A DNA stretch of 20,965 nucleotides from IMG/VR virus record IMGVR_UViG_3300017762_000098, positions 1-20,965 of that record; one strand, written 5' to 3'. The position numbers were made by a program, and so were the translations under genes. Within the stretch, counting starts at the first letter, position 1. Each line of letters starts with the position of its first letter. The DNA comes from a virus. The notes under the pieces were generated by a model. That model had not been told where the DNA came from and did no database searches. It saw nothing but the letters and a program-made list of their open reading frames with translations. Of this stretch, positions 2,503-20,965 are shown one piece after another.

Positions 2503-2721
2503 ATGGGCAGACCCAGAATTAAGGTTCCAGCCACACCACCACCGCCACCCATAGCCCCGGTCGCACCAATCTACGAGGGCGAGCAGGAAAGGCTCAAGAA
2601 AAAGTTGTTCGATCCGCGTCGTGTAGGACGCCAACAAACAATTTTGACGGGCCCACAAGGTTTACTTGGTAAAACACAGCGCAAAAAGTTAGGTGCCGGT
2701 GATACGCCCAAGAATACATGA
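2503..2721 (+). CDS. Small basic proline-rich protein with TGPQGLLG motif
   Basis: A 72-residue protein of unknown function. Residues 8-22 are a proline-rich arm (TPPPPP), residues 26-45 are highly charged, and the C-terminal third carries TGPQGLLG (49-56) followed by basic RKKLG (60-64). The next-but-one gene ends in a related peptide. I recall small basic proteins with such a 'T-x-P-x-G-L-x-G ... L-x-x-G' tail at the same place in other podovirus genomes, but cannot verify that here. A GAGGA ribosome binding site precedes the ATG and the gap to terL is two bases, so it is co-transcribed with packaging genes. A minor head or portal-assembly component is the most natural guess. The 3' end overlaps the next gene by 29 bases. 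Confidence 0.7.
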   Translation: MGRPRIKVPATPPPPPIAPVAPIYEGEQERLKKKLFDPRRVGRQQTILTGPQGLLGKTQRKKLGAGDTPKNT

Positions 2722-3094
2722 CGCCAAGCTTTCGCAAGATGCGCTGCTTGACTATATGCGTCAAACTAATTACCCATATCTTGAGGCGCATGAGCGTATA
2801 ATTGATTATGCGTTTGTGTTTACCTGCGAAGTAAAAGACAAGATTGCGGGATTTATTTGGTGCTATGGGCTTGATGGGGACGAAACAACCTGGGCAATAC
2901 ACGCTATGGTTTTACCTGATTATCAAAAGCGCTTTTTTACCAGGCGCCTAGTGAATACCTTGTTTAGTGTGGCATGGGTCTCTGGTGTTGACCGCGTCCT
3001 TGTGGAAAACTCTCAAACTGAAATGCTACTGCGAGTCGGTGGCTACATGACAGATGACGGTGCGGCATTAGATTTGCCGCATAAGTGGGGATGA
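2693..3094 (+). CDS. GNAT-fold-like protein between terminase and portal
   Basis: About 133 residues with the pattern of a GNAT acyltransferase: an N-terminal helical arm, paired strands around YAFVFTCEVKDKIAGFIWCY (residues 39-58), a strand then turn at WAIHAMVLPDYQKR, a helix, and a final strand and turn at DRVLVENSQTEMLLRVGG. The usual acetyl-CoA loop (R/Q-x-x-G-x-G/A) reads QKRFFTRRL, so the key glycines are absent; catalysis is doubtful and a structural role is possible. No ATG suits the start: GTG at 2693 or at 2699 is used, both inside the 3' end of the previous gene (an AGGTG site lies at 2691-2695). The ATG at 2756 would remove the conserved N-terminus. Similar proteins are known in this position in podoviruses (recalled). 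Exact start uncertain. Confidence 0.65.
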   Translation: MPVIRPRIHDAKLSQDALLDYMRQTNYPYLEAHERIIDYAFVFTCEVKDKIAGFIWCYGLDGDETTWAIHAMVLPDYQKRFFTRRLVNTLFSVAWVSGVDRVLVENSQTEMLLRVGGYMTDDGAALDLPHKWG

Positions 3095-8619: not shown

Positions 8620-11600
8620 ATGGCGAAATCCAGTGCGCCGTTCACTAACTTCACTGCTGGTGAGCTATCGCCAAGGCTGGACGGTCGCACCGACCTCGCC
8701 AAGTATTTCAACGGCTGCAAGAAACTCCAAAACTTTTTAACCTTCCCTCAAGGTGGCGTGACTCGCCGCCCTGGTGCAGAGCACATTGCTGTAGGCATAA
8801 ACTCAGGGGCAAACGAGTTACGACTTATCCCTTTCGAGTTTAATGTCGAGCAAACGTATGTGCTTGAATTTTCTGAAGAAAAATTTCGTATCTTTAAGGA
8901 TGGTGGAATTGTCGTTGCTGGCAGTCCTTCTGTGCCTGTGGAGGTTGCTACCCCCTATCTATCAAGTGAGTTAGCAGAATTAAAATTTACTCAATCTGCC
9001 GACATTATGTATATCGTGCATCCTAATCATGTGCCCAGGCAAATTACTCGCACAGATCACGACTCCTGGACAATTACTGAAATAGATTTTCGTCGAGGAC
9101 CATTTTTAGATCCCGCATTTGATGGCTCGACATTGCAAGCTGATGGAAGAACGGGAACCGTAACAGTAACAGCGGTTCCGGCGCCAGGAGACCCTAATAG
9201 GTTTTTTGCTACAGATGCAGGAAGGCTGATAAAGCTGCATCATGGCTATGCAAAAATTGACAAGATAATTTTTACACTGGGCTACGATAACAAGGTTGGG
9301 GCAGGTAGCTTTTCTGGAAATTGTCACTTAGTTTCAGATGCAAGCCAAAATTTTAATGTAATTGCTGATAGCGGCAGCGTACTCACTATTGACTCTCCAG
9401 CTTTTGGCGCAATTGGAGATGGCGTTGCCTTCCAGAACGAAGCCGGAACTATTACTGCAGATACTAATGTTGCCGGCACTAAGCTGTTTATATCGTCTAA
9501 TACGGCATCCTGTATCGTTCAAGAAAACGATGAGCTAGAAGAAGAGCTAGAGCCTAGCTTTACTGCGACTACGATTAGCTTCCATGAGGGCGATCCTGAT
9601 GCTACACGTCTGGCGCACAATGACTTCATCGAAGATAGTGGCGGCCATTTTATTACCGAAGGCTTTAAGGTCGGTATGCGTATTAGTGCTAGTGGATCAA
9701 CTGATATTGATATTGATAGCTGGCACATAGCATCAAACAAAATTGAGGTTACGACTTCAACACCTCATCGTCTTATTGACGGCGACCTTGTTACATTCAC
9801 CGGCGTGAGTGACGGATCGTTAACCATTACATTTAGTGATGGCAGTGCTGCTGATGTGAACGCGGATACCTTTGAGATTGTTATAGATCCAGACACAGAT
9901 CCGGAAACTAGGTTTCAAATACTAGACCCAAAAACGGGCGGCGATCTAAACCCTTCCGGTAGCGCTTCTGGCGGCGATCTAGTTAACGGCAACAATTTCT
10001 CTAACGCTTTGATTGTTGCTGTATCAGATAGCATTATCACGCTAGCAACCAGCAATGATGTTCACTTCCAAAATGAAGGTACGTCTATTACGTTAAGCGG
10101 TGACCTCATTGCCGATGATGAGTACCAGCTAGGCGCCTTCTCAGAGACTACAGGCTACCCTGCGTGCATTGCATTCTTTGAGCAGCGTCTTGTTTTTGCA
10201 AATACAGCACTGCAGCCACAAACGCTATTCTTCTCGGTAAGCGGAGACTATACAAACTTTACTGCCGGCACTAAAGACGACAGCGCATTGATCTACACCA
10301 TTGGATCTAACCAGGTAAACGTCATTCGCTATCTAACGTCATCTAAGGCGCTGCTGGTTGGCACCTCGGGTGGTGAGTTTGCGGTACGCGCTGGCTCGGT
10401 AGATGCTCCTATTACGCCGCTCAACACGCAGATCAAGCAGCAAGCTAAGTACGGCAGCGCTGACATACAGCCCTTGGTCATCGGCTCTACTGCGTTATTT
10501 GTACAGCGAGAACAGCGTAAATTACGAGAGCTTGTGTATAACTTTGATGTGGACTCATACATTGCCCCGGATATGACGCTGCTAGCAGAGCACATTACTC
10601 TTGGCAAAATTAAAGAAATGGCCTACCAGCAAGAACCAAACAATGTTGTGTGGTGCGTGTTGGAAGACGGCAAGCTAGTGGCGATGACCTATCGACGAGA
10701 GGAAGATGTGATTGCCTGGCACGAGCACCAACTAGGCGGCACATTGACTGATGGCGGCACTACGTATGATTACGGGTTTGTAGAAAGTATTGCGTCTATA
10801 TCTAGTAGCGATCGCACAGAAGAGGAAGTATATGTAGTGGTGCGCCGAACTATTGACGGAACCAATGTGCGCCACGTCGAACGGCTCAAGCCCATTGACT
10901 TCGGTACTGACGTGACCGATGCGTTCTATGTCGATGCTGGCCTAACGTACACCGGCGTGACATCAACACTAGATGGAGGCGTTGGAGCATCAGCCTTGGT
11001 CATTTCGCTAGATGACGCCTCTAGCTTTAGTGCGTCTGGCAAAGTAAGAATACGCAATGAAATCATCGCATACTCAGCTAAAAGCGGAAATGATCTTATC
11101 AAGTGTACGCGAGCGCAGGATGGCAGTGTTGCATCGGCTCATGCTGATGGCGAAACAGTGACTCAATTAGCTACAACAATTAGCGGGCTTGACCACCTAG
11201 AAGGGCAGAGTGTTACCATTCTTGCCGATGGCGCTACTCACTCAAACAAAACTGTGTCGTCTGGTAGCGTCACGCTTGACCGATCTGTTACCAAAGCACA
11301 CATTGGTCTTGGTTACGATTCTATATTGCAGACCATGCGCACCGATGCTGGTGGCACAGAGGGCACAGCCCAGGCTAAGAATAAGCGAATCAGCGACATC
11401 GACATCCGCGTTCTTGAGTCTGTAGGTGCAAAGGTCGGCCCATCAGAGGATGATCTAGACACTGTATTCTTTAGAACTACTAGCATGGCTATGGATAACC
11501 CAGTTCCATTGTATACTGGCGACAAATTTATCGAGTTTCCTGGCGGCTATAACAACGATGGGTTTGTAGTCGTCAAGCAGGATCAGCCACTACCGCTGAC

Positions 11601-11643
11601 AATTCTGTCTATCTATCCTCGATTGCAGACGTTTGATAGGTAA
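8620..11643 (+). CDS. Tail tubular protein B / tail nozzle (T7 gp12-like)
   Basis: A 1007-residue nozzle protein, longer than T7 gp12 (about 790). Conserved opening: NFTAGELSPRLDGRTDLAKYF (10-30), NGCKKLQNF, GGVTRRPG (45-52) and LAELKFTQSADIMYIVHPNHVPRQI (118-142). A long less-conserved part (about 165-505), rich in G, S, T and D, looks like inserted beta modules, including a 'GFKVGMRISASGS' unit. The conserved core resumes at YPACIAFFEQRLVFAN (from 513), with VGTSGGEFAVR, YGSADIQPLVIGSTALFVQREQRKLREL and later MTYRREEDVIAWHEHQLGG. Residues about 793-846 form a small 'EIIAYSAKSGN' domain that is also found in the spike encoded at the right edge. GAGG lies ten bases before the ATG. Six copies are expected to form the tail tip channel. 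Confidence 0.88.
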   Translation: MAKSSAPFTNFTAGELSPRLDGRTDLAKYFNGCKKLQNFLTFPQGGVTRRPGAEHIAVGINSGANELRLIPFEFNVEQTYVLEFSEEKFRIFKDGGIVVAGSPSVPVEVATPYLSSELAELKFTQSADIMYIVHPNHVPRQITRTDHDSWTITEIDFRRGPFLDPAFDGSTLQADGRTGTVTVTAVPAPGDPNRFFATDAGRLIKLHHGYAKIDKIIFTLGYDNKVGAGSFSGNCHLVSDASQNFNVIADSGSVLTIDSPAFGAIGDGVAFQNEAGTITADTNVAGTKLFISSNTASCIVQENDELEEELEPSFTATTISFHEGDPDATRLAHNDFIEDSGGHFITEGFKVGMRISASGSTDIDIDSWHIASNKIEVTTSTPHRLIDGDLVTFTGVSDGSLTITFSDGSAADVNADTFEIVIDPDTDPETRFQILDPKTGGDLNPSGSASGGDLVNGNNFSNALIVAVSDSIITLATSNDVHFQNEGTSITLSGDLIADDEYQLGAFSETTGYPACIAFFEQRLVFANTALQPQTLFFSVSGDYTNFTAGTKDDSALIYTIGSNQVNVIRYLTSSKALLVGTSGGEFAVRAGSVDAPITPLNTQIKQQAKYGSADIQPLVIGSTALFVQREQRKLRELVYNFDVDSYIAPDMTLLAEHITLGKIKEMAYQQEPNNVVWCVLEDGKLVAMTYRREEDVIAWHEHQLGGTLTDGGTTYDYGFVESIASISSSDRTEEEVYVVVRRTIDGTNVRHVERLKPIDFGTDVTDAFYVDAGLTYTGVTSTLDGGVGASALVISLDDASSFSASGKVRIRNEIIAYSAKSGNDLIKCTRAQDGSVASAHADGETVTQLATTISGLDHLEGQSVTILADGATHSNKTVSSGSVTLDRSVTKAHIGLGYDSILQTMRTDAGGTEGTAQAKNKRISDIDIRVLESVGAKVGPSEDDLDTVFFRTTSMAMDNPVPLYTGDKFIEFPGGYNNDGFVVVKQDQPLPLTILSIYPRLQTFDR

Positions 11644-11646
11644 CTT

Positions 11647-12261
11647 ATGGCAGATCCAATAACAGCAACACTTGTAGTAGGGTCGTCGCTCCTTAGTGCG
11701 CGATCTGCGCTAGCGCAAGGCGCTGCTGCCAATGCGGCAGGTCAGTTCAATGCAAACATGGCAGAGCGTAATGCTAAGGTAGCAGAGCAAAACGCAGAGC
11801 AGATTAAGCGCTCGTCTGAGTTTGACATTAATCGGTTCCGCGATAACTTTGATGATCTACAGGCAACCAGCGCCCAGGCGTTTAGATACAACGGATTCGT
11901 GGCTACTGGCGGAACACCGCTGCAAGTATTGCTCGATAACGCTAGAGAGGCTGACGAAGAAATTCATATACGCAGATACAACGCATCTATTGGCCAGCAG
12001 CAAGCGCTTGAGTCTGCAGCCGAGCAAAGATTGCAAGGCCGTCTTGATCGCATGATGGGCAGATCGGCGCAGAGGGCTAGCTACTACCAGGCTGCCGGAT
12101 CGCTTTTGGGCGGCGCCGCTCGAATCTCTAACATTTTTGGCCCGAGCAGCATTACTCAGCCACAGGCCTCGGCGTATTCGGCAGGGGAAAGCGCCGCTCC
12201 TACATTTGAGGGCTCAACAGGCATTCCATTCGGCCCAGCTGAAGGTTATACGGGAAGTTAA
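11647..12261 (+). CDS. Internal virion protein (T7 gp14-like)
   Basis: A 204-residue protein with the gp14-like pattern of DNA-ejection proteins. It has an N-terminal hydrophobic, alanine-rich segment (ITATLVVGSSLLSARSALA, 5-23), a long heptad-like helix (AAGQFNANMAERNAKVAEQNAEQIKRSSEF, about 30-60), the conserved QAFRYNGFVATGGTPLQVLLDNAREAD (77-103), a second helix RRYNASIGQQQALESAAEQ, and a glycine-rich disordered C-terminus. In T7 such a protein leaves the head first and forms an outer-membrane channel. It starts after a three-base gap from the nozzle gene and precedes the two other ejection protein classes, matching the 14-15-16 order. Confidence 0.85.
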   Translation: MADPITATLVVGSSLLSARSALAQGAAANAAGQFNANMAERNAKVAEQNAEQIKRSSEFDINRFRDNFDDLQATSAQAFRYNGFVATGGTPLQVLLDNAREADEEIHIRRYNASIGQQQALESAAEQRLQGRLDRMMGRSAQRASYYQAAGSLLGGAARISNIFGPSSITQPQASAYSAGESAAPTFEGSTGIPFGPAEGYTGS

Positions 12262-12264
12262 TTT

Positions 12265-14415
12265 ATGAAGGTGCCAACATACGAAGCCCAAACACGATTA
12301 GGCGCTGATGTCGGCGCAAGGCCTATGCGTGTGCGCGCTTCACCAGAAGCGTTTGGTGCGGCAGAAGCAAGAGCTATGGGAGGCCTCGCAGAGCAGGTGG
12401 GCCGTACAGCGCTCGACTTAAATCAAAGACAGAGAGAAGCTGCTGATCTTGAGGCCAGGATTCAAAAAGACCTTCAAAGCGAGCAGTTTACTAACGAGTA
12501 CATGGAGGCTGTAACTCTTGCGTCTGAAGAGGCGGCATTGCAACCGCCAGATCAGCAAGAGGCGTTTTACGATAACGCCGTTAAAAATATACAGAGCAAG
12601 ATACCGCAGCGTTTTGAGGATCCCGTACAGCGGCAAGAATTATCACTTAGCTTAGAAAGATACGCGCTTTCTCGAAGGGTTAACGTCCGAGCATCGGCAA
12701 ACAAGAATAGGCTAGATGCGCTTGTTGGCGAGTCTGCCAAACGAGAAATGACGCTTAGGAATGAGGCGATCAATGGCGATAAGGCTACTAGCACTAGGGC
12801 GATAGCTGATTTGCAGCAAATCTATATTGATCTTGAAGAAAAAGGCTTGATGACCGATGAGGATGTCGCAAAGCGATCTGCTCAAATGGTTAAGGATGTT
12901 CAATACGAGCGTGAGATCAACACGATCAACCGAATCAAAACGCCAGAAGAGGCTACCGCTTACGTCAACAGTATACGAGATGACGAACGCTTTGATCCAA
13001 CAGAGCGCCGGCAGCTTATGGGTGCCGTTAGTGGAATGCTTTCAAAGCGGGATGACGAAAGAAAGGCCGCCAGAGCCAAGCTAAAAGATGACATGGGATC
13101 ACTGCGTGATGTAATTGCTACCGGCATGGAAATCGGTCAAGAGCAGCTAGATGCCGTGAATCTTGAGCTAAAAATGTATGGCACTGAAGCCGACGCCAGA
13201 GACTTTGATGACATCCTGGCAGGTAACAAGAATGTCCAGATACTAAACAACACCGGCACACTGGCTGGCGTAGATAGTTTAATTAGGCAAATCGAATCTG
13301 AGCCCACGGCAGGACTTACAGCGCAAGAGCTAGGCTACAGAGCACAAGAATTAGAAAATGCTGAAGAGTATCGAGAAAAGATGGTCACGGCATTTGAGGG
13401 CGGCGATGCTCTGGATTTTCTGTCTCAGCGTGGGATTGTCAACGTAGAGCCTTTTGACTTTGCAAACTTGTCGCAATCTATTCCCGCTCGCACGCAAAAT
13501 ATGAATAAGATCGCCGCAAGCGTTGGTGTAAATGAAACAACCGGAAAGGTTCTGTATCCGCAAAATTTCTTTACAGACGAAGAAGCTGCTCAGTTTGCCT
13601 CATATCTAAATCGCGCCACACCGCAACAAAAGGCCTCATCAGCTTTAGCGCTTATACCTTTGGCCGATAGCTACCCGCAAGTATACGAGCAGATTGCTGG
13701 AAAGAATGGCGAGCTGTTTGCAATGGCTGGTGCAATCAGTGCCACAACAGCAATGGCAAGCCCTGTTAGCGTTCCTGATATGTCGATAGCAGAAGCTATA
13801 TTTGATGGCATACAAATTAGAGAGCAGCCTGGCTATGTTGCGCCACCTAAAAGACTTTTTGCTGCTGCTTTTGAAGAAGCGGTTGGCGATGCTTACAGAC
13901 GATCTCCAGAAGATGAGGCTGTAATGCAAGAGGCCGTGCTATCGCACTATGCCGCCACAAGAAAGTCGCGCGGTGAAGAGATTAATGAAAATACTCAAAT
14001 AACCGAAATACAGGAATCAATTAAGGCGGTATCGGGTGGCATTGGCGAATACAACGATCACCAATTTGAATTGTCTAGAGACCTGGAGCAAGATGAGTTT
14101 GAGTCTATTATTGATGGTATGACGCCTCGAATGTTGCGTTTGTTCGCGCCTAATGGGATAGACGGATACACTGATGAGCAAGCCATTGAGTTAATACAGC
14201 GTTCTCAGATCACGAATGGCGGTCTTGGTTACTACTATCCTGTGGACCCCGGCACCCTTCAACCGTTCTTGCTTACAAATGGTAAGCCTGTGCCGTTTGT
14301 TATCAACAATCGCCGCATGTGGAATGGCCGGACCTTAATGGATTACCTGCCATCAGACTACAAACTTGAGAAGCCTACTGTCTATTCAGTAAGAGGCATG
14401 GAGCTTAGCCTGTAA
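12265..14415 (+). CDS. Internal virion protein (T7 gp15-like)
   Basis: A 716-residue, strongly helical and highly charged protein with no membrane segment. Long helices dominate residues 30-330 (AAEARAMGGLAEQVGRTALDLNQ, then EAADLEARIQKDLQSEQFTNEY). The region around 440-560 includes QFASYLNRATPQQKASSALALI, and the C-terminal 90 residues hold a more globular segment (MLRLFAPNGIDGYTDEQAIEL, NGGLGYYYPVDPG, NNRRMWNGRTLMDYLP) like the end of other phage core proteins. Order, size and composition fit a gp15-like protein that lines the periplasmic tunnel during DNA entry. No peptidoglycan-hydrolase signature was recognised. Ribosome binding is weak (GGGAAG). The stop overlaps the next start as TAATG. 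Identity is by context, hence moderate confidence. Confidence 0.75.
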   Translation: MKVPTYEAQTRLGADVGARPMRVRASPEAFGAAEARAMGGLAEQVGRTALDLNQRQREAADLEARIQKDLQSEQFTNEYMEAVTLASEEAALQPPDQQEAFYDNAVKNIQSKIPQRFEDPVQRQELSLSLERYALSRRVNVRASANKNRLDALVGESAKREMTLRNEAINGDKATSTRAIADLQQIYIDLEEKGLMTDEDVAKRSAQMVKDVQYEREINTINRIKTPEEATAYVNSIRDDERFDPTERRQLMGAVSGMLSKRDDERKAARAKLKDDMGSLRDVIATGMEIGQEQLDAVNLELKMYGTEADARDFDDILAGNKNVQILNNTGTLAGVDSLIRQIESEPTAGLTAQELGYRAQELENAEEYREKMVTAFEGGDALDFLSQRGIVNVEPFDFANLSQSIPARTQNMNKIAASVGVNETTGKVLYPQNFFTDEEAAQFASYLNRATPQQKASSALALIPLADSYPQVYEQIAGKNGELFAMAGAISATTAMASPVSVPDMSIAEAIFDGIQIREQPGYVAPPKRLFAAAFEEAVGDAYRRSPEDEAVMQEAVLSHYAATRKSRGEEINENTQITEIQESIKAVSGGIGEYNDHQFELSRDLEQDEFESIIDGMTPRMLRLFAPNGIDGYTDEQAIELIQRSQITNGGLGYYYPVDPGTLQPFLLTNGKPVPFVINNRRMWNGRTLMDYLPSDYKLEKPTVYSVRGMELSL

Positions 14416-16613
14416 TGCCATTTATAAGCGCAGACGGCAGACGGCGATTAGAGACGGTTTCAGACGCTCCAACAATATCGCCAGAAATCAAAACTGACCC
14501 TACGTTTGGGGAAACGTTTTCTGCCGCTTTTGGCCTTACGATTGATGAGAATTTGTCGATATCCCGATATCTCAATCAAGAGTTATTTAAAGAGCGCAAC
14601 AATAATGTGCAAACGCTTATTAGTGAGGGTGTAGTCGATCCCGCAAGGTATGAGTACAACGACGGCACTTTTGATTACAACAAGCTATCTCTCGACTTAG
14701 ACGGCACAGAGTATGGGGGTATGGTAAAGCCAGACTCCATATTGCGAGAAGAGCGCAATGAGATGTTGCGAAATCGTAGAGAGTACGCTGAGTCAGTATT
14801 GGGCCAAGGCTCAGGATTGGCGCAGTTTTTAGGCATGGGCACCGCCTACATGCTGGACCCTATCAACATCGCAACAATGCCATTAGGCACGGTAGCCGCT
14901 GCGGCAAAAGGATTGACGGCATACAACCTGGCGCTAAATGCCGCCGGTCGTACTGCTGCAATCACCGTCGGATCAGAGGCGGCTATCCAGCTTGGCTTTG
15001 TCTACAACTACAAGCAAGAGATCGACTCTCCATATTCTATGGAGAATGCCTACGCAGCAATTGCCGCTGCTGGAATAGGCGGCGCTGCCATTGGCGCCAT
15101 ACAAGGCGGTGTGGTGGGTGCATTCAGGGCGGCTAAAGAGCGCACTGCGCAACAGCTAAAACTTGGCAGCGTAGTCAAAAGAGATGAAAACGGCAAAGTC
15201 GCACTTATATTTGACGAAAATGGTGAAGAAGATCGCTTACTCACTATAAAAATTTACGAGGCAGAAGACGCAAGCCCTACCGGAATGCTTTCTGATGAGC
15301 AAGTTCTCAAAATAGTTGAAGATTATTACAAGGATTCTCCAAGCCCTGCCGTAGCGCCAGAAGACCAGGCTATACCTAATGCACCAAAACCTAATGACGA
15401 TCTGCCGCTGGCCGATAGGTCGATGGATGCTATGGCCGATATTGCTGAAGCCGCAAGAAAAGAGCGGTTTGGTGAAACTCCACTATCCCCAATACAGATG
15501 GATGCTGATTATCAGGCGTATCTTAGAGGCGAGTATGACTCGATTGTAAAAACTGTAAATGCCAGTCTTCGCAAATTAAAAAGCCAAAGAAACGATTTAA
15601 CAAAATCAGAAAAAGTAGTTGATTGGATAAAGCAAAATGGCGGGCTGAACAAGGCTGCCTGGGAAGCTGACGGGATTGACAAAGCTACCTGGGAGGGCGT
15701 GCCGGAACAGGTTGATGCAATATCAAAAAAAGGTAAGCCGTATAAGAAAACAGTTTATAAAAAGATGAAAGGCTTTCCGAAAGAGTTTTGGAAAGATGGC
15801 GATGAAGGACTAACGCCTGATGGCCTTGCCGAACTAATGAAAGAAGATCCGCGTTTCTTTGAGTTTATTGAAGACGTAGGCGGAGTTCAGCAAATTGGCG
15901 CAAATGATGCGGTGGTTTACTTTAGAGAGCTGCTCAACGATATTGGTCGATTCATTGATCCGGATGTGCAGTTCAAGGTAAATGATTTAGATGAGGCGAT
16001 AGATGCGCTTGCAGTCAAAGCGCCGCCAGACCCATCAGAGGGCCTTACCGGCGATCTAAGAAAGGCCGCTAAGTTTGTTAAGAAACAGAAAAAGCCATTC
16101 AGAATAAGCCCGCTACAAAAGCATCTTAGGACTGGATACAACCCAACGGTAGAAATACTGGATGATCTGGAGTCTAGGGGGATTATCACCAAAAACCCTG
16201 ACACGCTTGAGTATACCTATAAGCAGCCTGACGTTGATTACGACATGGTGCTTGAAAAAGTCTATCGGCAAGCATCAGAAAAAACGATGGAGATTGACTT
16301 AGAGAGCTTGCAGATTCAAATGGCTAACATGAAGGCAAACCTTGAGCCTTCTCGTATACCAGAAAACTACCCATCGCAAGAAGACTTAGCGCTTGATGAC
16401 ATGGCAATCATGGCTAGAGAGCGTGAGTTGTTAGAGATCCAGGGCACTGAAGAATCTTACAATATCGCTATGACAGAGTATGAGCAGCTGCCTGTAGATA
16501 AGCGCAAGCTTATCATTGACGGCGAAGAGATTAGCGCTGATGAGTACATTAAAGAAATTGACGATCAGCTAGAAGATATTGATAACCTAATGAGGTGCGT
16601 ACGCGGTGAGTGA
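14415..16613 (+). CDS. Internal virion protein, N-terminal gp16-like part
   Basis: A 732-residue ejection protein. The start, PFISADGRRRLETVSDAPTI, is typical of this group. Residues 133-240 are markedly hydrophobic and glycine/alanine-rich (FLGMGTAYMLDPINIATMPLGTVAAAAKGL, then AAITVGSEAAIQLGFV and AAIAAAGIGGAAIGAIQGGVVGAF), as expected for a segment that inserts in the inner membrane during DNA entry. The rest is charged and helical, with a lysine-rich stretch (about 385-460) that contains a tandem ten-residue repeat (NKAAWEADGI / DKATWEGVPE-type, about 412-431). A motif resembling the GGL...G...D.LAE pattern seen in large phage virion proteins spans about 410-490. Translation begins at the ATG of TAATG, after GGAG 11 bases upstream. 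The 3' end overlaps the next gene by eight bases. T7 gp16 is one protein; here the function seems split over two. Confidence 0.75.
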   Translation: MPFISADGRRRLETVSDAPTISPEIKTDPTFGETFSAAFGLTIDENLSISRYLNQELFKERNNNVQTLISEGVVDPARYEYNDGTFDYNKLSLDLDGTEYGGMVKPDSILREERNEMLRNRREYAESVLGQGSGLAQFLGMGTAYMLDPINIATMPLGTVAAAAKGLTAYNLALNAAGRTAAITVGSEAAIQLGFVYNYKQEIDSPYSMENAYAAIAAAGIGGAAIGAIQGGVVGAFRAAKERTAQQLKLGSVVKRDENGKVALIFDENGEEDRLLTIKIYEAEDASPTGMLSDEQVLKIVEDYYKDSPSPAVAPEDQAIPNAPKPNDDLPLADRSMDAMADIAEAARKERFGETPLSPIQMDADYQAYLRGEYDSIVKTVNASLRKLKSQRNDLTKSEKVVDWIKQNGGLNKAAWEADGIDKATWEGVPEQVDAISKKGKPYKKTVYKKMKGFPKEFWKDGDEGLTPDGLAELMKEDPRFFEFIEDVGGVQQIGANDAVVYFRELLNDIGRFIDPDVQFKVNDLDEAIDALAVKAPPDPSEGLTGDLRKAAKFVKKQKKPFRISPLQKHLRTGYNPTVEILDDLESRGIITKNPDTLEYTYKQPDVDYDMVLEKVYRQASEKTMEIDLESLQIQMANMKANLEPSRIPENYPSQEDLALDDMAIMARERELLEIQGTEESYNIAMTEYEQLPVDKRKLIIDGEEISADEYIKEIDDQLEDIDNLMRCVRGE
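15645..15704 (+). repeat. Imperfect 30-bp tandem repeat in gp16-like gene
   Basis: Two adjacent ten-codon units share the pattern (L/I)(N/D)KA(A/T)WE. The best matching parts are AACAAGGCTGCCTGGGAAG (from 15648) and GACAAAGCTACCTGGGAGG (from 15678), exactly 30 bases apart. It looks like a local duplication that has since diverged. Confidence 0.6.
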
Positions 16614-19005
16614 TTTCGCTACTTGTATACCAAAGGTCGCAACACGGCTGCCCAAAGAGGTGCAGCAGCTTCTTAACGCTGCGGATGACCCGAATGCGCT
16701 GCTTGATGATTACATCACAACCCTGACCATCCAAAAGAAAGAGGCGGCATTCCAGGCTGTGAGGCTTGCCCAGGCATTTGATGATGCGGCGTCACACTCA
16801 AGAGGTCTTTATCAAGGCATAGAATCGCTAATGGTGTTAGATCGCACTATGAAGGCTGGGTATGAAAACGTAGACAGCCTATCTAAGTATTACGACTCTA
16901 TGTTCCAGGCTAGGGCTGCTGAAATCTTGTTTAGGTTCCGGCGTAAAGGGCTTGGTTTCTTTATGGATGAAGCGGGTTTAGCCAAGTTTATACGTGCCGT
17001 CTATGGTGAAACGACTGATGATGCTGAAATCAACAGCCTTGCAAAACAATGGCTAGAGCTTACTGAATTTATACGAAAAGAAAAAAACAAAAACGGCGCT
17101 TCTATTTCTAAGAATGAGCGCTTCCTGCTGCCACAAAACCATGACCCTCGAGCAATAAGAAAGATGGGCAAGGATGTCTGGAAGCAAAAAATTGCACCTA
17201 TGCTCGATGCTAACCAAATGCGTGACGATGCCGGCAACCTGTTATCAAAAACGCAAATGGATGAATTGCTTGATTACGTGTATGACACAATCACTATGCA
17301 CGGCCTTAACAAAGTCAAAGACCTTACCGTACCCAAACTAGGCAGAAAGCTATCTCGTCGTGGATCAGAGCGTAGAATTCTTTATTTCAAAGATGCTGAG
17401 TCCTGGATGAGCTACCAAAAAGAGTTCGGTAAGGGCGATTTATTTACCACCCTAACCGACTGGGTTAGCAGCAATGCTCACGACACGGCGTTGTTGCGAC
17501 GCATGGGGCCAAACCCAAACCAAACCTATGACGCCTTAATTGCTATGGCAAAAAAAGAAGACGCCTTTAAGGGCATAAAAACTCAAGGCATGTTAGACCG
17601 CATCTTTAACGTGGTGTCTGGCAAAACTAACCCAGTAGAAATGACCACTCTTGCGCAGATTGGCATGGTGCAAAGAAATATTATATCGGCGGCCTACCTG
17701 GGCGGCGCTTTCTTGTCTGCCATAAGCGACATTGCTTTTCTGAAACTAACCAGGCAATACGGCAACATACCGACGCAAAAAATCATGTCTCGGTATATGT
17801 CGTTTATGAATCCTGCAAATGAAGCAGACAGGCTGGCGGCTGCTCGCATTGGCATCATTGCAGAAGAGGCCATTGATCGCGCTCATGCGGCTAACCGATT
17901 TGCTGATGTGGTTGGCACTGGCAAGTCCATGCGCATGGCTGATCTGGTTATGCGCGCATCGCTGCTCAAACCTCACACTGAAAGTTTACGCAAAGCATAC
18001 GCTATGGAGTTCTCCGGCCTGCTTGCTGATAACTTTGGCAAAAAGTTTAATGACTTAGATCCCAATTTGCTTAAGGCTTTTGAGGTGTATGGCATTGGCC
18101 CTAACGAGTGGAGTCGATTTAGCAAGACACCGAAAATGGATTTAAAAGGCGCGCAGTTTGCTGACTTTACACAGCCTGGTGGCTTGAAGTTTCACCAAAT
18201 GGTGATGTCTGAAGTGGATTACGCAGTGCCCACGCCTGATTCAAAGATTCAGGCAATGACTACTGGCGGTCTCCAACGCGGCACTCCAGAAGGCGAGCTG
18301 TGGCGCTCTGCCATGCAAATCAAATCATTTCCGCTTACGGTGGCAAGCCTTCACTTTAATAGGGGCGCCGTTCAAGCAACTATGGGGCAGAAGGTTGGCT
18401 ATTACACGCAGCTAATGGTCTACACAACTGTTCTTGGCGGCATTGCATTGCAAGCAAAAGACCTGGCTGCAGGGAGAGATCCACGCGCCGTGCTAGATAA
18501 AAATGGCGTGCCAAAGAAAGAGTTTTTATTAGCAGCCATGGCTCAAGGCGGAGGCGGAACCCTTATCGGTGACTTCTTCTATAGCGACCAAAACAGATAC
18601 GGGCATAGCTTCTTCAAAACCTTAGCGGGCCCAATAGCCAGTACGTCTGACGATATAGCACAATACACGATTGGTAATGCGCAGGAGCTAGTCAGCGAGG
18701 GCTTTACTTTGGAAGGGCTCAAAAAAGGCTATGCAAAATCGAGGATTGGGCCAGAAACAGTCAAACTTCTTGAGCAATACACGCCCTCTGTATGGCAGGT
18801 AGACTTGTTTCTGCAGTCATTATTTGACTCAATGGAAATGGCGGCAGATCCCGAAGCTGAAAAGAAATACAGACGCCTTATGAAAAAACGGGCAAGAGAG
18901 TACAATCAGGAGTATTGGTGGAAACCTGGCACGCCAATAGGGGAAGTGGTAACTGGAGAAGCAGATATACGCCCGCCTGAGATAGAGGCAATTAGAGAGG
19001 ACTAA
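16606..19005 (+). CDS. Internal virion protein, C-terminal gp16-like part
   Basis: A 799-residue protein starting at GTG 16606, eight bases after GAGGTG; no ATG is near, and the overlap with the previous stop suggests coupling. The first 150 residues are helical. LLPQNHDPRAIRKMG (about 183-197) recalls a motif shared by phage internal core proteins. There are hydrophobic segments near 364-376 (SAAYLGGAFLSAI) and 604-620 (TQLMVYTTVLGGIALQ). The latter runs into AKDLAAGRDPR, then MAQGGGGTLIGDFFYS and GHSFFKTLAGPIAST, blocks I recall as highly conserved in podovirus core proteins. It probably completes the gp16-like ejectosome component with the preceding protein. The C-terminus is basic (KKYRRLMKKRAREY). 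No enzymatic motif was recognised. Confidence 0.78.
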   Translation: MSDFATCIPKVATRLPKEVQQLLNAADDPNALLDDYITTLTIQKKEAAFQAVRLAQAFDDAASHSRGLYQGIESLMVLDRTMKAGYENVDSLSKYYDSMFQARAAEILFRFRRKGLGFFMDEAGLAKFIRAVYGETTDDAEINSLAKQWLELTEFIRKEKNKNGASISKNERFLLPQNHDPRAIRKMGKDVWKQKIAPMLDANQMRDDAGNLLSKTQMDELLDYVYDTITMHGLNKVKDLTVPKLGRKLSRRGSERRILYFKDAESWMSYQKEFGKGDLFTTLTDWVSSNAHDTALLRRMGPNPNQTYDALIAMAKKEDAFKGIKTQGMLDRIFNVVSGKTNPVEMTTLAQIGMVQRNIISAAYLGGAFLSAISDIAFLKLTRQYGNIPTQKIMSRYMSFMNPANEADRLAAARIGIIAEEAIDRAHAANRFADVVGTGKSMRMADLVMRASLLKPHTESLRKAYAMEFSGLLADNFGKKFNDLDPNLLKAFEVYGIGPNEWSRFSKTPKMDLKGAQFADFTQPGGLKFHQMVMSEVDYAVPTPDSKIQAMTTGGLQRGTPEGELWRSAMQIKSFPLTVASLHFNRGAVQATMGQKVGYYTQLMVYTTVLGGIALQAKDLAAGRDPRAVLDKNGVPKKEFLLAAMAQGGGGTLIGDFFYSDQNRYGHSFFKTLAGPIASTSDDIAQYTIGNAQELVSEGFTLEGLKKGYAKSRIGPETVKLLEQYTPSVWQVDLFLQSLFDSMEMAADPEAEKKYRRLMKKRAREYNQEYWWKPGTPIGEVVTGEADIRPPEIEAIRED

Positions 19006-19007
19006 AC

Positions 19008-20965
19008 ATGACAGTATCCAGCGGCACTAGCTCTGTAAGCTATTCCGGCAACGGCAGCACTACCGTATTTGCGTATACGTTTAAGATCTTTGAAGACAGC
19101 GATCTTGTTGTTTCGTTGCGTAACAATACAACCGGCGCATCTACCACACAGACCTTAACAACTGACTACACAGTATCCAATGCGGGCAGCGCTTCTGGCG
19201 GTAGCGTCACGTTTGTGACGGCGCCAACTAGCGGAAACACGGTCATTATTCGTAGAGAGCTGCCTTACACGCAAGAAACCGACTACGTAGAGAATGATCC
19301 ATTCCCAGCCAAAGCGCACGAGGATGCGCTTGATAAGCTGACCATGCTGACCCAGCAAAACCGTGAAGAGGACGCAATCAAGTTTCCTGATGGCGATGTG
19401 ACTTCTGGCGTCAACAACGTAACGCCTAACGTCGTAGATCGAGCGGATACCGTTCTGGCGTTTGATAGCGCAGGTAACGTCACTGTTCAGCCGCTTTCTA
19501 CCACTGCCACTACCACATCTAGCACCCAGCAGGGCTTTACAGGCGATGGCTCTACTACTGCATTTACCCTGGCATCTAATCCTGGTGCTGCCGGCGCTGG
19601 CGTATCTATCTACATTGACGGTGTTTACCAGGAGCGCGACACCTACAGCATTAGCGACACTACGCTGACGTTTACCGAGGCGCCGCCAAACAACGCCAGC
19701 ATCGAGGTGCTGAACTACCGCATAGCAGATATCGGCACGGCTGATGCTAACAACGTCACCTACACACCCGCTGGCACTGGCGCAGTACAGACCACAGTAC
19801 AGACCAAGCTACGAGAAAGCGTTAGCGTCAAGGATTTTGGTGCTGTTGGCGATGGTGTGACAGACGATAGCACTGCACTCCAGAATGCTATTGATGCGGC
19901 GGCAAATGGATCGCTATATATACCCTCTGGCACTTATCTAATTGACGACACTCAAATACGAGTAGCTAGTCCATGTCGCATTTTTGGTGATGGTCCAACA
20001 TCTATTCTGCGATTTGACATTGACACCGTATCACAAGGTCTCCGAGTAACATCTAGCAGTGTCACTCTTGAGTCTCTATACATTGACTCTCGTAACACCA
20101 GCACAGGCGATGTCACGATATTAGTGGCCCATGATGATTCGCTTGGGTATATCAACGATCTTGTAATGAAGAACATCCACGTGTTTGGTGGTAATTCATT
20201 AGATACGAATAGTCTCCCAGAAAATCATGGGATTAAGTTTGCTGACGATACCAATGTGCGGCGCTGGAGAATGGAAGGCTGTACGTTTGAGAAGCTCCGC
20301 ATTGGTATGTTTACAGCTAACGCGTTTGGCGCTAATGGAAATACTGCTGAAGACTGCACGATATCTAACTGTTCATTTTTAAACATGGGTTTACGAGCCT
20401 TAATTTTTAACACTGACTTTGCAACATCCGGTGTAAAGGTCGCATGGGACAATGTTCGAGTTAGCAACTGTTTATTTGAAGGACATCAAGGTACTGACTC
20501 AGAAGATCGCTGTACCATATTAGGCACTGATGGCTGTCGCAGTTTATCGGTTGTAGGCTGTCAGTTTATTGATTTAAACAGACCAAACGACTGCTGTATT
20601 CACGTTGAAAACGAAAGCGATAACTTTGTTGCTACTGGCAATTCATTTAGAAATGTTGGCGGCGGCATTTCTTATTACTCACTTTCATCTGGTGGAAAGA
20701 TTTCCAATAACATCATGTTTGGCAGGCATGATCGCAGTGAATCCACACTTGATGGTGCGCTAACTAATTCAGCAACAACCATCCCATTGCATGATGCGTC
20801 TGGCTTTCCAAGCTCTGGCACAATCAAAATTAATGCTGAGATCATTACGTACACAGGCAAAAGCAGTAACAGTCTGACAGGTGCAACCAGAGGTGCAAGC
20901 AGTACAACTGCGGCGGCCCATTCTGATAACTCTGTTGTGTATTCTGATCCATCGACGTTTGATAC
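19008..20965 (+). CDS. Tail fibre/spike, T7-type anchor plus beta-helix, partial
   Basis: An intact reading frame of 652 codons from ATG 19008 (GAGG seven bases upstream) that runs off the right edge without a stop. Residues 1-120 match the T7 gp17-type N-terminal anchor that binds the fibre to the tail: SGNGSTTVFAYTFKIF, DYTVS, VTFVTAP, RRELPYTQETDYVENDPFPAKAHEDALDKL. Residues 176-237 repeat a similar beta module (GFTGDGSTTAF, YIDGVYQERDTYSIS, TLTFTEAPP). From 272, VSVKDFGAVGDGVTDD starts a pectate-lyase-3-like right-handed beta-helix with YIPSGTYLID. Such helices in phage spikes bind and often cleave capsular or O-antigen polysaccharide. The helix is rich in cysteine. The end (about 588-645) carries the 'EIITYTGKSSN' domain also seen in the nozzle protein. 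Substrate unknown; the catalytic part cannot be judged from this fragment. Confidence 0.88.
   Translation, partial: MTVSSGTSSVSYSGNGSTTVFAYTFKIFEDSDLVVSLRNNTTGASTTQTLTTDYTVSNAGSASGGSVTFVTAPTSGNTVIIRRELPYTQETDYVENDPFPAKAHEDALDKLTMLTQQNREEDAIKFPDGDVTSGVNNVTPNVVDRADTVLAFDSAGNVTVQPLSTTATTTSSTQQGFTGDGSTTAFTLASNPGAAGAGVSIYIDGVYQERDTYSISDTTLTFTEAPPNNASIEVLNYRIADIGTADANNVTYTPAGTGAVQTTVQTKLRESVSVKDFGAVGDGVTDDSTALQNAIDAAANGSLYIPSGTYLIDDTQIRVASPCRIFGDGPTSILRFDIDTVSQGLRVTSSSVTLESLYIDSRNTSTGDVTILVAHDDSLGYINDLVMKNIHVFGGNSLDTNSLPENHGIKFADDTNVRRWRMEGCTFEKLRIGMFTANAFGANGNTAEDCTISNCSFLNMGLRALIFNTDFATSGVKVAWDNVRVSNCLFEGHQGTDSEDRCTILGTDGCRSLSVVGCQFIDLNRPNDCCIHVENESDNFVATGNSFRNVGGGISYYSLSSGGKISNNIMFGRHDRSESTLDGALTNSATTIPLHDASGFPSSGTIKINAEIITYTGKSSNSLTGATRGASSTTAAAHSDNSVVYSDPSTFD
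19783..19806 (+). repeat. Perfect 12-bp tandem duplication in the spike gene
   Basis: CAGTACAGACCA occurs twice in direct succession (19783-19794 and 19795-19806). It keeps the frame and encodes the doubled VQT in AVQTTVQTKLRES, the linker between the N-terminal modules and the beta-helix. Confidence 0.9.

Follow-up and report, generated by a model that had tools for sequence, protein, structure and literature searches.

A small, predicted all-beta module is inserted in the tail nozzle and the tail spike of a pelagiphage-like virus and recurs in other virion proteins and in bacterial flagella

Ig-like, BACON and other add-on domains of phage virions are optional, occur on diverse virion proteins and are often repeated. 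The same logic, optional presence on diverse virion proteins, applies to the module described here, a segment of about 67 residues found twice in the virus record IMGVR_UViG_3300017762_000098 (20,965 bases, analysed in full and hereafter called the window), once in a tail nozzle and once in a tail spike. Its closest described counterparts are barrels within larger virion proteins: domain VI of the JBD30 hub is reported as a small six-stranded barrel stabilising the baseplate (PMC11445458), and the insertion domain of the LKA1 tailspike gp49 as a barrel of six strands set into the run of the beta-helix, whose substrate groove it deepens (PMC5701251), a domain that DALI likens to residues 222-345 of the P22 capsid protein (PMC5701251). 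The module is a new family of this known type, small barrel insertion domains of virion proteins. By computation, its copies are homologous, cleanly inserted, repeatedly gained or lost, and carried by several unrelated scaffolds; on this basis we consider it probable (about 0.75) that the module is a mobile, independently folding decoration barrel spliced into surface loops of nozzle and spike. The order of open reading frames (ORFs) in the window is, in our own comparison, similar to the order annotated in pelagiphages, for instance Skadi-1 and HTVC010P. The features concerned are the following:

8620 to 11643, plus strand: tail nozzle protein of the T7 gp12 type, 1007 amino acids (phrog_376, match to the Carin-1 nozzle, fold).
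10963 to 11160, plus strand: module copy 1, nozzle residues 782-847, between LTYTG and TTISGLDHLEG (blastp, alignments with module-free nozzles).
19008 to 20963, plus strand: beta-helix tail spike, 652 amino acids up to the window end, where the frame is still open (Pfam).
20742 to 20939, plus strand: module copy 2, spike residues 579-644, interrupting the beta-helix (blastp, comparison with loci L010 and L009).

A first-pass annotation of the window had pointed out a segment common to nozzle and spike, and this was confirmed over a slightly longer stretch than described. When the whole proteins were compared by blastp with composition adjustment, nozzle residues 782-847 and spike residues 579-644 aligned without gaps, with 31 of 66 positions identical (58.5 bits, E 8e-13), and the Smith-Waterman score was 146, compared with a maximum of 90 in 300 shuffles. 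The DNA of both copies is 53% identical over 198 bp, indicating that the nozzle-spike relation is old, and blastn of the nozzle gene against the spike gene returned nothing better than E 0.06. The nozzle copy is 57% identical to copies of the phrog_3287 cluster, and the spike copy 71% identical to a nozzle copy of another record, whereas the two are only 47% identical to each other. Thus, the proposal of an old shared module rather than a recent duplication holds, since the copies sit in different scaffolds, have diverged in DNA and are each closer to copies in other proteins. The two copies also score 106.9 and 69.5 bits against a profile of 70 module copies from outside the nozzle and spike clusters, which is a consistency test and not an independent one because the profile was gathered by a search begun with the window copies. 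Searches of the window record revealed only the nozzle and spike copies and no third place.

From an alignment of 37 module representatives, AlphaFold2 predicts the spike module alone as a confident small all-beta domain (predicted local distance difference test, pLDDT, 97.8; predicted template modelling score, pTM, 0.83). The nozzle copy, within the model of the full nozzle, has the same strand order except for the last strand, with a block pLDDT of 85-93 over residues 781-850. Out of 47 module representatives picked, 37 were aligned and 10, mostly divergent or insert-bearing, were left out; E, Y and R are invariant in the 37, and some of the dropped copies lack parts of the pattern. A search of a predicted viral library gave 50 matches below E 0.001. 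The closest folds to the predicted one are six-stranded barrels found in phage virions, for instance domain VI of the JBD30 hub. When 95 chains were realigned to the module model, F1-ATPase barrels set the background (Z 5.9 or less), the tool warning that a Z under 8 may reflect just a common arrangement. Residues 65-141 of a VP1 capsid chain reached Z 9.9, a 116-residue chain of the GP4 portal-tail complex Z 9.6, and the Mystique tail tube Z 7.6, which is under 8; P22 coat protein has no entry in the realigned-chain table, an absence that excludes nothing. By sequence, the PDB gave chance matches only (best E 0.61 for the single spike module and 0.22 for the profile).

The JBD30 hub aligns with 66 of the 67 module residues (Z 8.9, root mean square deviation (rmsd) 1.8) over hub residues 481-553, which probably correspond to domain VI. 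A JBD30-type profile, built from 27 sequences of the 80 loci returned, matched the module profile by hhalign with E 9.4e-5 and a probability of 58.9 over 65 columns, as compared with E 0.26 for the control alignment, and both families conserve E, R and H, and mostly a G after the R. The JBD30 sequence on its own matched the module profile insignificantly (best domain 0.8 bits). Kinship between the module and hub domain VI is therefore likely, not proven; the two differ in that the JBD30 domain is part of the hub, whereas the module comes and goes.

The LKA1 gp49 barrel (residues 288-365; PF20745, TSP_Ig-like) may also resemble the module in fold, with 61 residues aligned at rmsd 1.8 and a Z of 7.4, under 8. 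Like module copy 2, it is inserted in a tailspike beta-helix, as judged for copy 2 by eye through L010. Nevertheless, PF20745 was absent from the matches of the 37 representatives at E <=0.1, whereas it matched LKA1 gp49 itself at 1.9e-49, and by eye nothing in the module obviously corresponds to the LKA1 loop that bears Arg329. A search with the LKA1 domain yielded 2 loci, not enough to build a profile. The likeness to the P22 I-domain is one reported for the LKA1 domain, and by its residue range the I-domain is longer than the module.

No Pfam or NCBIfam model scored above its cut-off for the module in the 37 representatives. Specifically, no Ig, Fn3 or Big Pfam model did so and no Pfam enzyme model covered the module. 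Below the cut-offs, Fn3_arc matched two of the 37 (15.9 bits versus a cut-off of 28.9 in the window spike copy) and PF23666 (Rcc01698_C) four (best E 0.063; 16.8 bits versus a cut-off of 27 in L016), and NCBIfam gave four matches to unrelated families, each in one of the 37 members, with a best E of 0.019.

The scaffold of copy 1 is a T7 gp12-type nozzle, related to solved nozzles in both fold and sequence, and the name given to it by the first-pass annotation is borne out. Indeed, the ORF matches the phrog_376 tail protein at 1.2e-209 and the Carin-1 tail nozzle (8ck1_A) at 1.2e-107 by phmmer, and its AlphaFold2 model (39 sequences, mean pLDDT 81.6, pTM 0.74) superimposes on 8ck1_A with Z 42.0 over 701 aligned residues (rmsd 3.0) and on entries titled T7 with Z 26.0-28.9. 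In alignments the insertion is clean: about 70 residues lie between LxYxG and xSGLxHLEG, where most module-free relatives have about five. Alignment of the DNA across the nozzle junctions was misaligned over the gap and yielded no useful scar.

The nozzle ORFs collected number 116; the site could be read in 112 of them, and 99 differ in their C-termini. Among these 99 the module is present in 21, at one loop, and absent from 78. A scan by nozzle sequence only found it in 5 of 78 readable loci, and among 12 named phages whose nozzles were compared it occurs in one, Skadi-1. On a tree of the 99 nozzles with the module removed, at least six gains or losses are required, all six forced by starred branches, in agreement with the earlier proposal of a mobile beta module; for example, L108, a close relative of the window, is without it. 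Four nozzles (L045, 1310-4648; L048, 2231-4687; L054; L061) carry the module at the usual site and a second copy further upstream. The usual site follows the propeller and precedes the C-terminal strands. Since the fibre dock of T7 gp12 is described as lying between propeller and platform (PMC6702177), the nozzle module is probably located in the fibre-dock domain. As a separate observation, Skadi records that match in tail tube B number nine in all.

Copy 2 resides in a protein that the first-pass annotation had called a receptor spike. A beta-helix spike fits this name, as Pect-lyase_RHGA_epim (PF12708) scores 56.3 bits against a cut-off of 27; the T7 tail fibre N-terminus (PF03906) stays below its cut-off (22.6 versus 25.2 bits), and residues 1-118 match PHROG tail families at 4.6e-51 and 5.1e-51. 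In two loci, L010 and L009, the match to the window spike (about 90% identity) starts at residue 245 or 472 and extends to the end of the window; beyond the module, both go on with sequence that is beta-helix-like by eye. In L010 (2690-4930; window 19740-20963), a 90% identical beta-helix with module is joined to a different spike N-terminus, and its 12-kb record (G009) has no ORF matching the window nozzle (module aside) or the proteins at 12265-19005. Beta-helix and module thus seem to travel together, in what looks like a swap of the whole receptor part.

The module is widespread among viruses. In IMG/VR, a relative of the spike copy is encoded at 568 among the 600 pattern matches listed, and the nozzle copy as query gave far fewer, 6 loci from 41 pattern matches. 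The two copies match 25 and 58 phage records, nearly all of Synechococcus, Prochlorococcus or Pelagibacter phages and two of Roseobacter phages. A scan of 182 records (184 minus two window sub-loci) found 102 ORFs with 123 module matches at E 1e-3, a count in which a few copies from overlapping loci appear twice. The carriers tested match phrog_376, phrog_3287, phrog_5107 (named amidase), phrog_4311 (minor head) and phrog_12985, and a further carrier is a YHYH/baseplate-wedge-like protein. Hence, the range suggested by the first-pass annotation, tail proteins, has to be widened: tail proteins do carry the module, and so do other virion proteins, bacterial flagellar proteins and giant surface proteins. 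In a tree of the module itself (67 residues), 49 of 85 inner branches are open, and it does not tell whether the spike copy came from a nozzle copy. The string EIITYTG was not found by full-text search of one open-access library, and in the part of that library's matches on repeated tail domains that was judged, by titles and abstract starts, the module is undescribed. The module model also matches, with 58% sequence identity over 64 columns, a protein of Bodo saltans virus, which judging from its name infects a protist; the protein is named membrane associated protein (BFVD A0A2H4UVI4_2).

The least expected part of the findings is the occurrence in flagella. A scan of bacterial genomes gave 23 module loci, in 16 of which, two from one assembly, the carrier is a giant FlgE of 1,708-1,747 codons where complete. 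By their titles, 12 of these 16 belong to SAR116 and four to other Alphaproteobacteria or Pseudomonadota. Fifteen match the N-terminal part of the L188 FlgE at >=94%, and the truncated L197 matches its C-terminal part. The FlgE of L188 (L188:1692-6830; also in L206, L187 and 13 further loci) has up to three module copies and lies in a normal flagellar operon with two rod proteins, FlgD, two FlgF/G-like proteins, FlgH and FlgI. Of the other seven loci, L184 contains a nozzle, L185 a phrog_3287 protein, and L195 and L196 giant surface ORFs. The one in L196 (3-10193), from an assembly titled Candidatus Kuenenia stuttgartiensis, is open, has cadherin domains and shows 14 module-like matches, several of them weak. 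A family search found a module match at E 1e-6 in 45 of 58 genomes, the carrier proteins being known by ORF length only. For nine flagellar copies, identity to the best phage match is 44-62% over 47-71 columns. In the same open-access library, no account of flagellar modules was found by titles and abstract starts, matches for SAR116 and hook being listed in part.

In the genomes G033 and G034, three adjacent copies also occur in FlgK and in flagellin. The G034 triplets of FlgK (L299:3166-10575) and flagellin (L298:3074-6043) are 91.5% identical in DNA over 647 bases and 88.8% identical in protein; at E 1e-5 the two genes match nowhere else in DNA, although weaker protein similarity reaches past the triplet, e.g., 36% over 205 residues. 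In contrast, the flagellin triplets of G033 and G034 are only 66.8% identical in protein, whereas the rest of these flagellins is 96-97% identical. This suggests that the triplet was replaced, for example copied from FlgK into flagellin, in what looks like gene conversion between flagellar genes.

Taken together, these data are best accommodated by a mobile decoration barrel. Because the module takes the place of a loop of about five residues, its chain ends must lie close together; it can therefore be placed in a surface loop while leaving the scaffold intact. One copy occupies a nozzle loop, which most likely belongs to the fibre-dock domain directly behind the beta-propeller, and the other stands between rungs of the spike beta-helix. 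Because its nearest structural relatives are JBD30 domain VI and the LKA1 barrel, and because it is present in flagellar and giant surface proteins, the module may project outward from the virion and benefit it as a surface decoration, by packing against neighbouring subunits and/or by weak adhesion, and it probably spread by recombination between genes. Several points weigh against this reading. The poorly resolved module tree means that routes of transfer between proteins are not demonstrated, and the nozzle tree is that of a quick method with the Shimodaira-Hasegawa-like approximate likelihood ratio test (SH-aLRT) only. Carriers are over-represented among the 99 nozzles, many of which were found by module searches, and apparent gains and losses could also arise from recombination within the nozzle gene. 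Foldseek returned no PDB match below E 0.001, the six best being phage proteins. Finally, we infer outward exposure, binding and stabilisation.

Alternatively, the module could be a tolerated passenger, a selfish or neutral insertion of no benefit at nozzle or spike. Its rarity in nozzles found by their own sequence, its absence from the close relative L108 and its many unrelated host proteins are what such a passenger would show. However, the invariant E, Y and R, with the dropped copies again set apart, argue against this, and SAR116-type marine bacteria keep the module in three of their flagellar proteins and seem to have copied it between two of these, which suggests use. We therefore regard a passenger as unlikely. 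A bolder proposal, which we hold to be quite speculative, goes beyond the decoration barrel: phage virions and SAR116-type flagella (hook, hook-filament junction and flagellin) might share an exchangeable barrel from a family that crosses between virus and host. A shared coat might serve one purpose in both, such as locking helical or ring assemblies laterally, or providing masking or adhesion in seawater, and the phage copies might derive from, or mimic, those of the host flagellum.

The first-pass annotation had also raised a common partner, and the two copies might bind one partner or each other as a functional unit, for example locking the spike to the fibre dock. Both copies do occur in one genome, and the nozzle copy follows the propeller, where the fibre dock sits in T7 gp12 as described (PMC6702177), its position here being deduced from that arrangement. 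Nevertheless, nozzle and spike copies vary independently. Near relatives G003 and G004 carry the nozzle module, whereas a second module is missing from their homologous spike, which spans 767 codons, is 59% identical to the window spike over 484 columns and is apparently shared by both. G017 carries its two modules in the nozzle, and the complete genome of Skadi-1 its single one likewise; the fibre ORF of each, with an N-terminus related to that of the window spike (46% and 51%, respectively), is without it. Conversely, spike copy and beta-helix occur in G009 at L010 with a different spike N-terminus and different neighbours. With four records having the module in the nozzle and none in the spike or fibre, a common nozzle-spike partner is not supported and seems improbable to us. 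The interpretation of the first-pass annotation is thus partly supported as a whole. A recent duplication between the two genes, which their presence in the same genome might suggest, is practically discarded by the 53% DNA identity, the lack of a significant blastn match and the greater identity of each copy to copies elsewhere (57% and 71% versus 47%), and we give as little credence to chance or low-complexity similarity of threonine/serine-rich beta proteins, since, although by eye T, S, A and G abound in both regions, the composition-adjusted E of 8e-13 far above shuffles, the residue pattern common to 37 representatives and the one confident fold all speak against it.

A widespread domain without a Pfam or NCBIfam model has now been given a predicted fold, a precise insertion site and a record of gain and loss. 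The shared module explains why unrelated virion proteins match each other in searches, and a protein should not be named by it. The link to flagellin, FlgK and FlgE in SAR116-type bacteria, with apparent copying of a triplet, makes it a testable question whether such add-on barrels are adhesive, structural or selfish. Elsewhere in the window, an ORF of 133 amino acids upstream of the portal (2693-3094) is acetyltransferase-like by eye; unlike this candidate, the annotated acetyltransferase of pelagiphage relatives directly follows the nozzle.

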